The notes under the pieces are model-generated. The model did not search any database. It was not told where the DNA came from and saw only the letters and a program-made list of their open reading frames with translations. Positions 43,876 to 61,360 of a DNA stretch of 64,000 bases are shown here, in pieces; position 1 is the first letter of the stretch; each line of letters starts with the position of its first letter. Source of the stretch: Dethiobacter alkaliphilus AHT 1 (GTDB taxonomy: Bacteria > Bacillota > Dethiobacteria > Dethiobacterales > Dethiobacteraceae); the NCBI RefSeq assembly GCF_000174415.1, contig NZ_ACJM01000001.1, forward strand, positions 1 through 64,000. Direction: 5' to 3'. A program made the translations under genes and the position numbers.

Positions 43876-43909
43876 ATGCCCGCAAACCGTACAGTTTGCG
43901 GGCATTTTT
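43876..43909. terminator. Terminator after aconitase, shared with the convergent repeat-protein gene
   Basis: TGCCCGCAAAC CGTACA GTTTGCGGGCA followed by TTTTT; the complementary A run serves the other strand. Confidence 0.88.
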
Positions 43910-44474
43910 AGCGACCACCCTTGGCCGCCCTGGAGCGCTCCAGATAAATTTTGTACACCACACAGGCTAAAACAGCCGCCACAAGGGGTGGGAAGTCCAC
44001 TAAGTCCAGGTTTACGTCGGCCCCCACAAAGGTTCCGCCCAGGCGGCCCTGCAGCCGGCCTTCTGCGGCTATGAATTTAAGGTTGCAGTCAAACCCTACG
44101 ATGGAGCCGCCCACTCTGCCGCTGATTTGCTCATGGCCCTCCAGGGAAATGTCATCTCCGATGGTTTCTCCGCCTAAGCGGCCGAAGGCCCGGCCCGGCT
44201 CCAGTGCCATATTCAGGTCCTTGCCAATCACCTCACCGCCGACTCTTCCCCAAAGATGGTTGCCTTCTGCCGATATTTCCAGGTTGATGTCGTTTCCACT
44301 AACTTTTCCTCCCAGGCGGCCGTGAAAAATATTGCCCTCACGGGTGCATTCAATGCTGTAGCCGCCAAAGGCACCGCCGATCCTGCCAGCTGCTTTTCCC
44401 AACCAATCTCCCCCATTATTAATCAGTTTAACCGCTTGCCGGCAAAGGCATAATACGCGGTTGCAAGTTACCAT
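43908..44474 (-). CDS. Glycine-rich repeat protein with C-terminal membrane segment
   Basis: Protein of 188 residues I do not recognise. Residues about 48-160 contain five repeats of 21-24 residues built on (G)R(L/V)GGxxxGxD(I/L/V)NL, for example GRLGGKVSGNDINLE and GRVGGEVIGKDLNMA, which should fold as a small beta-solenoid. A hydrophobic segment near 163-177 (PPLVAAVLACVVYKIYL) is followed by basic residues, so it may be tail-anchored. The N-terminus has three cysteines (TCNRVLCLCRQ). ATG with AGGAAATTG upstream. Convergent with aconitase. Confidence 0.72.
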   Translation of the reverse strand: MVTCNRVLCLCRQAVKLINNGGDWLGKAAGRIGGAFGGYSIECTREGNIFHGRLGGKVSGNDINLEISAEGNHLWGRVGGEVIGKDLNMALEPGRAFGRLGGETIGDDISLEGHEQISGRVGGSIVGFDCNLKFIAAEGRLQGRLGGTFVGADVNLDLVDFPPLVAAVLACVVYKIYLERSRAAKGGR

Positions 44475-45260: not shown

Positions 45261-45290
45261 AAAGAAAAGGCGGGCAACCGCCTTTTCTTT
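45261..45290 (+). terminator. Terminator after the rubrerythrin gene
   Basis: Perfect 13-bp stem AAAGAAAAGGCGG GCAA CCGCCTTTTCTTT. Confidence 0.85.
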
Positions 45291-45297
45291 GTATTGG

Positions 45298-45366
45298 TAG
45301 GAAATTAACGCTTCGCAGTTTGCGAAGCTGCTAAAGGAAACCGATTTGAAGTGCTTTTCTTATTAT
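45298..45366 (+). repeat. Dispersed intergenic repeat, copy E (shortened)
   Basis: TAGGAAATTAACGCTTCGCAG then TTTGCGAAGCTGCTAAAGGAAACCGATTTGAAGTGCTTTTCTTATT. The first hairpin GCTTCGCA/TGCGAAGC is complete; the second hairpin is deleted but the CTTTTCTTATT tail remains. It abuts the 3' end of the convergent MCP-like gene. Confidence 0.65.
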
Positions 45367-46217
45367 TGAAGTTTTAATAAGTCGGCAGATAATTTTTGCA
45401 GTCTTTGGGAAACATCCGCCAGGGATTCCAGTGCAGCCAGAGTCTCTTCGGTAGCTGCCGCCTGGCTTTGGGCAATAAGGCCTGATTCTTTGATGCCGTT
45501 GTTGATGGTCGACATATAGTCTTTAACTGTTGAGGTAATGGTGCCGATTTCTTTGGTGGATACGCTGGTGTTTTCCGCAAGCTTGCGGATCTCCGTGGCA
45601 ACAACGGAAAAACCCTGTCCGGCCTGTCCCACCCGTGCTGCCTCAATGGCAGCGTTTAGTCCTATAATATTGGTCTGCTTGGCAATATCCTCGATTATCT
45701 TTAAAATCTGCTGCGTTTTTTCTGCTTCTGTTGTGGCAGTCTGTGATGTTTCGGTCAGTGTTTCGCCATAGTTGGCCAGTTTTTCCGCTTCCCCGGCCAA
45801 CTGTTCCATGCTGGCCCGGATTTGCCCTGCCGACTCATTTAATTGCTCTATGTAGCGTGCCAACTCTTCGGCATTGGCATAAATCTTTTTAAACAGCTCT
45901 TCCCGGCTTTGCACAATGGTAATCAATAGTTTTGCTGCAGAGGCATCCATTTGTGCTACTTCTTCCGGGATATTTGCTTTTACCAGATCCTTTACTTTTT
46001 CCACGCCGGTAACTTCGATAACCATCTGCAGGTTGGGTTCAGTTAATTTGGGAATAAAGTCGGTCACAGCACCAATGCCCAGTTCACGGGCTTTGGCCAG
46101 TGCCGGTGCATCGGCCTGAACGTCTGCAACCCAGAGTACCCTGACGCTATCAATGGTCATCAGCAAATTCAGGATAGCCAAACCGCCGCGTCCGCCGCCG
46201 ATAATGCCAATATTCAT
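45363..46217 (-). CDS. Rossmann-fold/methyl-accepting signalling domain fusion
   Basis: Cytosolic protein of 284 residues with an unusual fusion. The N-terminus (1-85) is a Rossmann nucleotide-binding domain: [21 protein letters not shown] and VIEVTG, as in NAD(P)-dependent dehydrogenases. After a helical linker, residues about 115-284 form an MCP signalling domain with the hairpin tip motif [21 protein letters not shown]-like sequence and long coiled-coil arms. There is no membrane segment. It may couple a nucleotide or redox state to CheA/CheW chemotaxis (inference). ATG after GAGGTGAG. Convergent with rubrerythrin. Confidence 0.85.
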
Positions 46218-46326
46218 TTACTCACCTCTCCATAGTGCTAAAGTTATATGTTTAACAAGTATTTCTTTTGTCAAGTCGTAAATCCTGCTTTTTTGACAAT
46301 ATATATCATTTATTTTTTCTGTCCGT

Positions 46327-46406: not shown

Positions 46407-47147
46407 ATGAAAAGACAAATAGTTCGTATTGATGAAAACAAGTGTGATGGCTGCGGCCAATGTATCCCCGCATGTGCTGAAGGAGCACTGCAAATTGTTA
46501 ACGGTAAAGCCCGCCTGATTGAAGATAAGCTTTGTGACGGCCTGGGTGAGTGTCTGGGTAATTGCCCCCAGGATGCACTGATTATCGAAGAACGGGATGC
46601 AGATGCTTTTGACGAAGAAGCGGTGGAAAAGCACCTGGAAGAACAGAAAAAGACACAGGCTCAGGAACAACAGCCTCTGGGCTGCGGTTGCCCCGGCACC
46701 ATGGCCAGAACAATGGCACCGAAAAAAGATGCCAAGCCGGTAACAGCGGAAGGGGAAACTCCCTCCGAACTGGGCCAGTGGCCTGTACAGCTTAAACTGG
46801 TGAACCCTGCAGCTTCCTACTTTAAGAATGCCGACCTGCTGGTAGCAGCCGACTGTGCGCCCTTTGCTTATGCAGACTTCCACAAAGACTTCCTCAGCGG
46901 CCGTGCCTTGGCCATTGGCTGCCCCAAACTGGATGATGCCATGTCATATGTGGAAAAACTGGCTGAAATTATTCGTGTGAACAACTTAAACAGCATTACC
47001 GTGGCCCACATGGAAGTTCCCTGCTGCAGCGGCTTAATCAGCATCGTACGTGAAGCAGTAAAACGTGCCGGTGTGGACATCCCGGTACAAACAGTAAAAA
47101 TCTCTTTAGACGGAACCGCAAACCAGCCCCAAAAACTCTCCGCCTAA
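46407..47147 (+). CDS. Iron-sulfur protein with ferredoxin domain
   Basis: Protein of 246 residues. The N-terminal ferredoxin domain has one complete CDGCGQCIPACA motif and a second set CDGLGECLGNCP in which the second cysteine is Leu, so the second cluster may be [3Fe-4S] or differently ligated. A Gln/Lys/Glu linker and CGCPG motif follow, then a C-terminal domain (about 120-230) with VAADCAPFAYADFH, AIGCPKLDD and VPCCSG cysteines. Such proteins are common in strict anaerobes and often lie near hybrid-cluster or other redox genes. A possible FNR-like site precedes it. ATG after AGGAGG. Confidence 0.85.
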   Translation: MKRQIVRIDENKCDGCGQCIPACAEGALQIVNGKARLIEDKLCDGLGECLGNCPQDALIIEERDADAFDEEAVEKHLEEQKKTQAQEQQPLGCGCPGTMARTMAPKKDAKPVTAEGETPSELGQWPVQLKLVNPAASYFKNADLLVAADCAPFAYADFHKDFLSGRALAIGCPKLDDAMSYVEKLAEIIRVNNLNSITVAHMEVPCCSGLISIVREAVKRAGVDIPVQTVKISLDGTANQPQKLSA

Positions 47148-59229: not shown

Positions 59230-59463
59230 ATGAAAGTCATCAGGGTTTTTTTACACAACTTTTTGGATACGTATTCGGGCCAAGGGCCTGAGACAGAGCT
59301 TGAGATTTTGGACGGGTGGCAAGTAAGGGACGTGCTGGCGGCCATAGGCATTGAGCCGGAAATTATTGGTGTTGTTTTAGTAAACAAAAAGCTTGCCGAT
59401 AAAGATACTGAGATTAAGGCCAATGATCGGGTAGATTTGTACCCGCTGTTTGGCGGCGGTTAA
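59230..59463 (+). CDS. MoaD/ThiS-like ubiquitin-fold protein
   Basis: Protein of 77 residues with a beta-grasp fold and a C-terminal LFGGG tail (diglycine), typical of MoaD/ThiS sulfur carriers. It lies 16 bases before a tungsten-type aldehyde:ferredoxin oxidoreductase gene, the common arrangement for MoaD-like proteins that deliver sulfur for pterin (MPT) synthesis. The ATG at 59230 with AAGGGG upstream is preferred to an ATG at 59212. No moaE or other moa genes are in the window. Confidence 0.85.
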   Translation: MKVIRVFLHNFLDTYSGQGPETELEILDGWQVRDVLAAIGIEPEIIGVVLVNKKLADKDTEIKANDRVDLYPLFGGG

Positions 59464-59479
59464 TGAGAGGAGGATGCAG

Positions 59480-61360
59480 ATGAGTTACGGTTATACCGGG
59501 AAGATTTTGGAGATTGATTTGACTGCCGGTACCCATAATGTTCTGAAGATGGGTGAGGATTTTTACAGAAAGTATCTGGGTGGGCCGGGTATTGCCACCT
59601 ATTTTGCACTAAAGAATATTACTCCCCACACCGAACCGTTGTCTCCGGATAACGTGCTTATTTTTGCCACAGGAATTCTTACCGGTTCTTTTGGCCCCGC
59701 TGTTCCCCGCTATACTGTTTGCGCCAAGTCTCCGCTGACAGATACCATCGGCAAGTCGGAGGCCGGTGGCTTTTGGGGGCCTGAGTTAAAAAAAGCAGGT
59801 TATGATGCTATTATTGTCAGGGGAAAAGCAAAAGACCCTGTTTATGTAAATATTGCAGATGGTGCAGTGAAGATAAAAAGCGCGGCGGCTGTCTGGGGTA
59901 AAGATACGCTGGAAACACAAAATGCTTTGGAGCAGGCTGAAGGAGAAGGTACCCGGGTGTTACAAATCGGCCCCGGTGGAGAAAACCAGGTGCTTATGGC
60001 TAACATCGTAAACGAGTTAGGACATTTCAACGGCCGCAATGGTTTGGGGGCTGTGATGGGTTCCAAAAACCTTAAAGCCATTGTGGTTAAGGGAAGTGAA
60101 AATGTTCCTTGTTACGATAAGGAGTTTCCCAAAGATTTGTCACGTTGGGTAGCAAAAAACTTAAAAGACCACGCGCTGGCCTATGGCCTTTACTGGAACG
60201 GTACACCAGGCGGTATCACAACCATGAACGCCAATGGTTCATTACCAACAAAGAACTGGCAAGAGAGTGTTTTTGACCGGGCAGAAGAAATAGGTGCCCA
60301 GAGCCTGGAAAAGATTTTGATTAAACGTAAAGGTTGTTTTTCCTGCCCCGTGCGCTGCAAGCGGGTAGTGGAGAGCAAGGACAGTGAGATGCCCATCAAC
60401 CCCGCATTGGGCGGCCCCGAATATGAAACTCTGGTATGTCTGGGTTCCAATCTGGGGATTGGTGATATCAAACTGGTGTCTAAGGCAAATGAGCTGTGCA
60501 ACCGTTATACGCTGGATACCATGAGCCTGGGAATGACCATTTCCTTTGCCATGGAGTGCTATGAAAAAGGCTTTTTGACAAAAGAAGATACCGGGGGTAT
60601 AGAACTAACCTTCGGTAATGAAGATATTTTACTGGATTTGATACGCATGACCGCCTTCAAGGAAGGTTTTGGTAAGGACCTGGCACTGGGCTCATACCGT
60701 CTGGCGCAGCAACTGGGTAAAGAAACAGAAAATTTTCTGCTGCAGGTAAAAAAACAGGAACTTCCAGCCCATGACCCCAGGGTAAAGGCAGGCCTGGCGC
60801 TACAATATGCCATTTCCAGCCATGGCGCAGACCACTGGTTTGCCCAACACGACACGCTATATACTGAAAAAGGCTCCAGCGGTATGCAGTCCATTGCTCA
60901 ACTGGGAGTTGCTGAGCCGGTACCGGCCGATGAGCTTTCGGCTCAGAAGGCAAAACTTATCTACTATACACATTTAATGACCATAATGTATGACTGCCTG
61001 GGCGTATGTATCTTTGGTTATGCTTCACGAAGTATTGTGTCGCTGGAAAAACTGGCACAGCTGGTTGAAGCGGTAACCGGCTGGAACATCAGTATGTGGG
61101 AGATGCTTAAAGCAGGTGAAAGGGCATCGGTGATGATGAGGTCTTTCAACGGACGGGAAGGATTCACCTCCAGCGACGATGTACTGCCGCCGAGGGTTTA
61201 CGACGGTATTACAAACGGACCCCGCAGGGGCGAAAAGCTTAATGAAGCCGTATTTACCCAAGCCAGAGAGGTCTACTATCAGATGGCCGGATTAAATGAA
61301 CAGGGCCTGCCCACCATCAGTAAGCTTGCTGAGTTGGAGATTGACTGGCTGGCAGAATAA
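59480..61360 (+). CDS. Aldehyde:ferredoxin oxidoreductase, tungsten-type
   Basis: AOR-family enzyme of 626 residues that oxidises aldehydes to acids with ferredoxin, using a tungsten bis-pyranopterin and one [4Fe-4S] cluster. N-terminal domain: GYTGKILEIDLTAG, KYLGGPGIATY, KSPLTDTIGKSEAGGFWG, and GRNGLGAVMGSKNLKAI. Cluster cysteines CFSCPVRC near residue 290, and the later cysteine in DCLGVC near 510. ATG at 59480 after AGGAGG. Followed by a terminator. In reverse, such enzymes can reduce carboxylic acids; substrate is not known. Confidence 0.93.
   Translation: MSYGYTGKILEIDLTAGTHNVLKMGEDFYRKYLGGPGIATYFALKNITPHTEPLSPDNVLIFATGILTGSFGPAVPRYTVCAKSPLTDTIGKSEAGGFWGPELKKAGYDAIIVRGKAKDPVYVNIADGAVKIKSAAAVWGKDTLETQNALEQAEGEGTRVLQIGPGGENQVLMANIVNELGHFNGRNGLGAVMGSKNLKAIVVKGSENVPCYDKEFPKDLSRWVAKNLKDHALAYGLYWNGTPGGITTMNANGSLPTKNWQESVFDRAEEIGAQSLEKILIKRKGCFSCPVRCKRVVESKDSEMPINPALGGPEYETLVCLGSNLGIGDIKLVSKANELCNRYTLDTMSLGMTISFAMECYEKGFLTKEDTGGIELTFGNEDILLDLIRMTAFKEGFGKDLALGSYRLAQQLGKETENFLLQVKKQELPAHDPRVKAGLALQYAISSHGADHWFAQHDTLYTEKGSSGMQSIAQLGVAEPVPADELSAQKAKLIYYTHLMTIMYDCLGVCIFGYASRSIVSLEKLAQLVEAVTGWNISMWEMLKAGERASVMMRSFNGREGFTSSDDVLPPRVYDGITNGPRRGEKLNEAVFTQAREVYYQMAGLNEQGLPTISKLAELEIDWLAE

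Follow-up and report, generated by a model that had tools for sequence, protein, structure and literature searches.

A Rossmann-type input domain on a soluble chemoreceptor of Dethiobacter alkaliphilus: a candidate reader of the intracellular NAD(H) pool

PAS, globin and Cache domains are among the familiar input domains of chemoreceptors. Soluble receptors of the HemAT and TlpD type carry a globin, PAS or CZB domain on an MCP hairpin. Rex, the NADH/NAD+-responsive repressor, has an N-terminal DNA-binding winged helix. The E. coli energy-taxis receptor Aer binds its FAD through a PAS domain, and it also possesses a transmembrane part and a HAMP domain (PMC12540587). Our literature search, which was limited to open-licence papers, found no description of a Rossmann-MCP fusion. 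The soluble chemoreceptor is the known part of the system reported here, and the Rossmann input domain, in an unusual and widespread layout that we did not find described, appears to be the new part. Our analysis indicates that the protein is probably a cytosolic chemoreceptor whose Rossmann-type input senses a small molecule inside the cell, NAD(H) being the likeliest, and reports redox or metabolic state to the chemotaxis kinase.

The gene lies within positions 1 to 64,000 of contig NZ_ACJM01000001.1 (assembly GCF_000174415.1), and this whole stretch of 64,000 nucleotides is called the window below. The genome report describes D. alkaliphilus AHT1 as motile and its draft as 34 contigs of 3.12 Mbp (PMC5609068); these contigs (3,112,004 bases) hold one fusion gene and seven other MCP-type matches to its hairpin. 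The initial annotation had read positions 45363-46217 as a nucleotide-binding Rossmann domain fused to a chemotaxis signalling domain, and the fusion of a Rossmann-type domain to an MCP hairpin is confirmed, with the following features:

45363..46217, (-) strand: Rossmann-MCP gene, soluble chemoreceptor, an ORF of 284 aa with ATG start
46223..46231, (-) strand: Shine-Dalgarno-like GGAGAGGTG, just 5' of the ATG, from sequence
45261..45290, (-) strand: terminator-like hairpin of 13 pairs, 3' of the Rossmann-MCP gene
45942..46217, (-) strand: N-terminal Rossmann-type domain, residues 1-92, from AlphaFold model, PDB matches and conservation
46182..46199, (-) strand: GGGRGG, residues 7-12, GxGxxG dinucleotide loop (G7 98%, G9 100%, G12 97%)
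46122..46124, (-) strand: Asp32, end of beta-2 (99% weighted), paired with an Asp in the PDB match 4mio, inositol dehydrogenase
46005..46016, (-) strand: E68-V-T-G71 loop after beta-4 (E68 85%, T70 99%, G71 96%, weighted)
45366..45941, (-) strand: MCP signalling hairpin (residues 93-284), which continues the last Rossmann helix and has no match to HAMP
45627..45656, (-) strand: hairpin tip, residues 188-197, 8 of 10 positions invariant in 17 sequences
45432..45461, (-) strand: methylation-site consensus match, residues 253-262; 11 of the 17 sequences have the strict form at 253 or 254

The Rossmann-type domain (about residues 1-92) runs directly into a short soluble MCP hairpin. MCPsignal is the sole Pfam family above its cut-off in the full protein (residues 158-276, E 1.5e-27, 96.9 bits, cut-off 34.6), and neither a PAS nor a HAMP family is among the Pfam matches. 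By hydropathy, the protein has no transmembrane stretch, which agrees with the cytosolic location proposed for it: the highest 19-residue Kyte-Doolittle mean is 1.69, and this maximum begins at residue 13, within the Rossmann domain. Terminator-like sites number four in the region (mean of 1.7 in shuffled sequence). The promoter scan of the region gave three weak sigma70-like sites (mean of 1.8 in shuffles), none of which we claim. A gene for a 4Fe-4S protein with Fer4 domains (46407-47147, (+) strand) is oriented divergently from the receptor gene, possibly sharing a common promoter region with it, and this divergent pair recurs in three further genomes (G002, G016 and G007) and in two MAG loci (L009 and L010). 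Elsewhere in the window are a 188-residue ORF with repeated G-R-x-G-G units and no Pfam match at E <= 1e-4 (43908-44474, (-) strand) and an aldehyde ferredoxin oxidoreductase gene (59450-61360, (+) strand).

Rossmann enzymes bind NAD at three places, namely the GxGxxG loop, the end of strand beta-2 and the loop that follows beta-4. An Asp that ends beta-2 usually favours NAD over NADP, and its combination with GxGxxG is the customary fingerprint of NAD binding. GxGxxG and an acidic residue ending beta-2, the mark of NAD-binding Rossmann domains, are both present in the window protein, and the GGGRGG and ADV motifs singled out in the initial annotation proved to be real, with the glycines and the Asp conserved as listed above. 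The conservation figures derive from a weighted alignment of 126 N-domains (127 rows minus one second-domain duplicate) from MCP, sigma54 and HD-GYP architectures, with an effective number of 71.9, and they are somewhat biased because the HMM was made from motif-bearing sequences. The top-conserved positions among these 126 sequences are G9, A43, T70, D32, G7, G12, G71, V75 and P38, most of which map to the three places where Rossmann enzymes bind NAD. Asp32 would be predicted to contact the adenosine ribose of NAD, and the E68-V-T-G71 loop presumably forms the remainder of the putative pocket. The possible loss of GxGxxG in homologues, raised earlier as a point against dinucleotide binding, was found in none of the MCP fusions and in a few sigma54-type relatives of the class (L031-L033). 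Judged by fold and fingerprint, the N-domain is predicted to bind NAD(H), with NADP(H), also among the options of the initial annotation, disfavoured as the cofactor because of the conserved Asp32.

Pfam NAD-binding models recognize the window N-domain weakly (NAD_binding_3, 17.3 bits, cut-off 24), and on the full protein the top NAD-type hit, again NAD_binding_3, has an E of 0.072. Among 11 scanned homologues of mixed architecture, five (L008, L083, L091, L097 and L098) pass the cut-off of GFO_IDH_MocA, DapB_N or NAD_binding_3, and six fall below all three. When a profile of 18 N-domains was compared with the PDB, the best-scoring relatives were NAD-dependent Gfo/Idh enzymes: the first match was inositol dehydrogenase 4mio (E 0.0026), whose Asp lines up with D32, and the second was acetaldehyde dehydrogenase 4lrs (E 0.044). 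The resemblance to Gfo/Idh-type proteins, a comparison suggested in the initial annotation, extends to the cofactor half and fails for the rest, since the catalytic C-terminal domain of Gfo/Idh/MocA proteins or of homoserine dehydrogenase is absent and the remainder of the protein is the MCP hairpin.

The AlphaFold model of residues 1-122, built from 4 sequences and of intermediate confidence (pLDDT 64.1, pTM 0.51), has the elements E-H-E-H-H-E-H-E-H in a Rossmann-like order, with beta-3 not formed; a full-length model from the single sequence was poor (47.9) and was set aside. Foldseek returned no match to the N-domain model at E <= 0.001, its first matches being acetaldehyde and semialdehyde dehydrogenases at E of about 0.04. 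Structural comparison with VIA gave Z of 9.0 for precorrin-2 dehydrogenase and 8.0 for the NADH sensor Rex (rmsd 7.0). Nucleotide-sugar formyltransferases, which are non-NAD enzymes, are on par with the NAD proteins (Z 8.9), GAR synthetases are also among the matches, and the majority of the Z values lie close to the common-fold background. These matches, none of them strong, speak for the predicted fold rather than for a ligand.

The hairpin tip (residues 188-197) is presumably the CheA/CheW contact region, as in MCPs generally, and the stretch at 253-262, which matches the methylation-site consensus of MCPs, is a candidate site of methylation. The last Rossmann helix of the N-domain model (residues 92-120) extends toward the hairpin. 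We measured the spacing between the T-G loop and the Glu of the tip in 91 MCP-type ORFs, comprising 62 full-size, 15 short and 14 insert-bearing forms. Among the full-size fusions, 48 have a spacing of 121 residues and 14 deviate from it (118 in eight, 120 in three, 130 in two and 124 in one). The short fusions have a spacing of 114, i.e., one heptad less, in 10 of 15 cases, 87 in three and 88 in one, and a C-terminally cut ORF of this form (L022) has 121; the insert-bearing fusions range from 330 to 335. Direct helical coupling between the two domains would call for just such a seven-residue step, though common descent could account for part of the pattern.

The initial annotation had suggested a search for the fusion in other Firmicutes, and it is indeed found there. 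An N-terminal query matched 22 of 59 genomes of the class (own genome included), 18 with the chemoreceptor fusion and four with the sigma54 form only. Beyond this set, a sample of 398 genomes of one phylum was covered: the profile of 18 N-domains matched 121 of them at E <= 0.001 and 104 at E <= 1e-11, and the 17 genomes whose best E lies above 1e-11 probably hold mostly other Rossmann proteins. The N-domain is fused to MCP hairpins, to PAS-containing sigma54 activators and, once, to a PAS-GAF-HD-GYP protein. A motif-rule census of 131 distinct fetched ORFs yielded 91 MCP, 34 sigma54, 1 HD-GYP and 5 unsorted ORFs, proportions that should not be taken as those of the phylum because the loci were fetched mainly from the strongest matches. 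On reading, the unsorted ORFs comprised an MCP (L146), two sigma54 activators (L041 and L032), a truncated ORF of about 140 aa (L077) and an enzyme-like protein with a weak match (L162). The HD-GYP protein (L100, 516-2669, (+) strand) carries the N-domain followed by PAS, GAF, PAS and an HD-GYP-type HD domain, a possible link to cyclic-di-GMP turnover.

The MCP fusions come in three layouts: one of about 285 residues, to which the window protein belongs, one of about 490 residues, and one of 215-273 residues with a shortened hairpin. The second of these has about 210 additional residues between the Rossmann domain and the hairpin, which look PAS-like and to which Pfam gave no name (L083). In four very short proteins of about 215-232 residues (L094, L095, L096 and L099), the hairpin reaches barely beyond the signalling tip. 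On a tree of the 126 N-domains, the output labels switch 3 times, compared with a mean of 31 and a minimum of 26 in 200 shuffles, and the few switches suggest that the fusions were few and old. No relative of the N-domain was confirmed in viral contigs and none was found in plasmids; assembled genome contigs gave three MAG loci, including Dethiobacter MAGs.

Feeding into the chemotaxis pathway, as the initial annotation had proposed, is well supported by conservation, by co-occurrence with CheW and by some che or flagellar neighbourhoods. Every one of the 18 class genomes that carry the fusion has CheW, as do 20 of the 41 that lack it (Fisher 5e-5, relatedness ignored). In the phylum sample, CheW is found in each of the 68 genomes with a fusion of MCP type and in 268 of 330 others (Fisher 3e-6, relatedness ignored); these 68 were picked manually from the sorted N-domain matches and compared with the CheW list by eye. 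Such a trend would be expected to accompany any MCP. The own genome has a che cluster on contig C16 (L043) with CheR, CheB, CheD, CheY, CheA and CheW, which were assigned by similarity to the Che proteins of locus L042 and, for CheW, by the Pfam model. We inspected 54 fusion neighbourhoods (14 of the 18 class fusion genomes and 40 other phylum loci), some of them cut by contig ends and five of them counted with the fusion ORF itself uncalled because of its start. Che or flagellar genes occur near 9 fusion genes (7/14 in the own class, 2/40 in the rest of the phylum) and were absent from the other 45 neighbourhoods, including that of the window's own fusion gene. The clearest case is G009, where the fusion stands between a cheY/cheA/cheW side and a flaG, fliS, flgK side in a neighbourhood with cheY-cheA-cheW-cheR-cheB-cheD and fliS-flgK. 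In G008 and G014, the fusion is flanked by flagellar and che genes; it adjoins flgM-flgN-flgK-flgL in G051, G036 and G039 and flgK-flgL in G056; it lies immediately 5' of cheB in G184, and in G285 it precedes cheB with one small ORF in between. These data support the assignment of the Rossmann-MCP fusion to the CheA/CheW flagellar system, and the CheW co-occurrence together with the che and flagellar neighbourhoods makes an MCP unrelated to the flagellar pathway unlikely.

The remaining neighbours differ from group to group: no fixed partner gene is present in all 54 neighbourhoods, the commonest neighbour families occurring in 8. The own family has the divergent 4Fe-4S gene, and eight loci outside the class have one common setting. 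In these loci (L106, L108, L111, L115, L117, L125, L130 and L132), the receptor gene lies between two conserved gene groups, which by the look of their sequences resemble spore-maturation genes and a gene for a pseudouridine synthase; L132 has two further genes in between. A cupin-type glucose-6-phosphate isomerase gene, assigned by Pfam GPI for L046 and by clustering for L047, L049 and L054, lies directly upstream of the receptor gene in these four genomes of two families.

The second N-domain protein of the own genome is a 569-residue activator with PAS, sigma54-type AAA+ and Fis-type HTH domains, and its N-terminus passes the GFO_IDH_MocA model (26.3 bits, cut-off 24). We examined a chosen set of 16 loci of such sigma54 cousins (L183-L198), in two of which (L185 and L190) the activator was called from an inner start; neighbours were checked by Pfam for ten representatives and by clustering for the remainder. 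The cousins lie by genes for succinyl-CoA synthetase and methylmalonyl-CoA mutase in five loci (own genome included), by fumarase, fumarate reductase or malic enzyme genes in four, by FAD-dependent oxidoreductases in four, and by phosphate acetyl/butyryltransferase in three, two of these also with a Glu/Leu/Phe/Val dehydrogenase. None of the 16 neighbourhoods contains che or flagellar genes; two CheY matches (L194 and L195) belong to longer proteins of 261 and 235 aa and were discounted. Regulation of the operons by the cousins is predicted, and their PAS domains could supply a specific signal. The form with two PAS domains resembles, we presume, BkdR. A Bacillus survey gives BkdR two PAS/PAC domains (PMC4428206), the available input-domain list of a Clostridiales survey of sigma54 activators is without a Rossmann domain (PMC6615313), and the accessible portions of two papers describe a propionate gene cluster without naming a regulator with a Rossmann N-domain (PMC6046458, PMC10308238).

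With four kinds of catabolic operon lying beside cousins that share one near-invariant pocket, a common cofactor fits better than a pathway-specific substrate, and among shared cofactors NAD(H) is favoured. NAD(H) would then occupy the Rossmann pocket of the receptor, and altered NADH/NAD+ occupancy would move the last Rossmann helix, which is also the first coiled-coil helix. The locked register would carry this shift to the hairpin tip and change CheA activity, CheR and CheB would modify the hairpin for adaptation, and the resulting behaviour would be energy or redox taxis.

The alternative that survives best, which we consider unlikely, is that the domain binds another nucleotide-like or carboxylate metabolite, for instance one of the CoA esters or 2-oxo acids, and that the Asp and the glycine loop serve that ligand. 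The sigma54 cousins do adjoin CoA and organic-acid operons, one of them scores 19.6 bits against CoA_binding, short of the cut-off of 22.3, and the formyltransferases and GAR synthetases named above are among the structural matches; against this, the pocket residues stay constant though the operons vary widely, and D32 with GxGxxG is generally the signature of NAD. It is quite improbable that NAD(H) is held constitutively as a structural cofactor, or that the domain is a dimerisation or docking module reading a partner protein, e.g., a dehydrogenase. A second domain normally closes over the nicotinamide, and the lone half-domain of the model is without such a substrate domain, which counts against the favoured reading and would suit this idea, as would a review entitled "Protein Activity Sensing in Bacteria in Regulating Metabolism and Motility", as far as its available part goes (PMC6978683), but a common partner gene is lacking in the 54 neighbourhoods. 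A chance fusion, a mis-called ORF or a decayed, functionless enzyme might be suspected from the weak Pfam score of the single window protein, and is hardly credible given that length and motif are retained in the window protein, in the 16 orthologues aligned with it over their full length (17 sequences), and widely among the sampled phylum genomes.

Beyond NAD(H) sensing by the receptor itself, we advance more tentatively, and at slightly worse than even chances, that this is an undescribed NAD(H)-reading input domain common, within a single phylum, to chemotaxis (three MCP layouts), sigma54 activators of catabolic operons and one HD-GYP protein. If so, one cofactor ratio would set both swimming direction and catabolic gene expression, and these MCPs would be a class of chemoreceptors that reads NADH/NAD+ directly. 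A receptor for the NAD(H) pool would give anaerobes, which gain little from sensing oxygen respiration, a direct link between central metabolism and behaviour. With its conserved pocket and direct coupling, the idea can be tested on a small soluble protein. The sigma54-borne N-domain is likewise a candidate input for regulators whose extreme N-terminus is unassigned in the available parts of the two surveys (PMC6615313, PMC4428206).

Compared with the known systems, the window protein is like the Firmicutes PAS-containing sigma54 activators in its homologous N-terminal Rossmann domain, whereas their output is AAA+ and HTH. Gfo/Idh/MocA proteins and homoserine and acetaldehyde dehydrogenases have the NAD-binding half closest to it by sequence profile and Pfam, and the fusion does without the catalytic domain of Gfo/Idh/MocA and homoserine dehydrogenase. 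Rex, which is among the structural matches, uses a Rossmann NAD domain as a sensor, as the window protein is predicted to do, but its output is transcription, and the window protein has no N-terminal winged helix, its Rossmann domain starting from residue 1. Like Aer (PMC12540587), the window protein would signal to CheA how reduced the cell is, but through a GxGxxG Rossmann domain coupled directly to the hairpin. Finally, it shares with HemAT and TlpD the absence of a membrane segment and an N-terminal or separate input domain set on an MCP hairpin with a CheA/CheW tip, and differs from them in that this input is a Rossmann domain.
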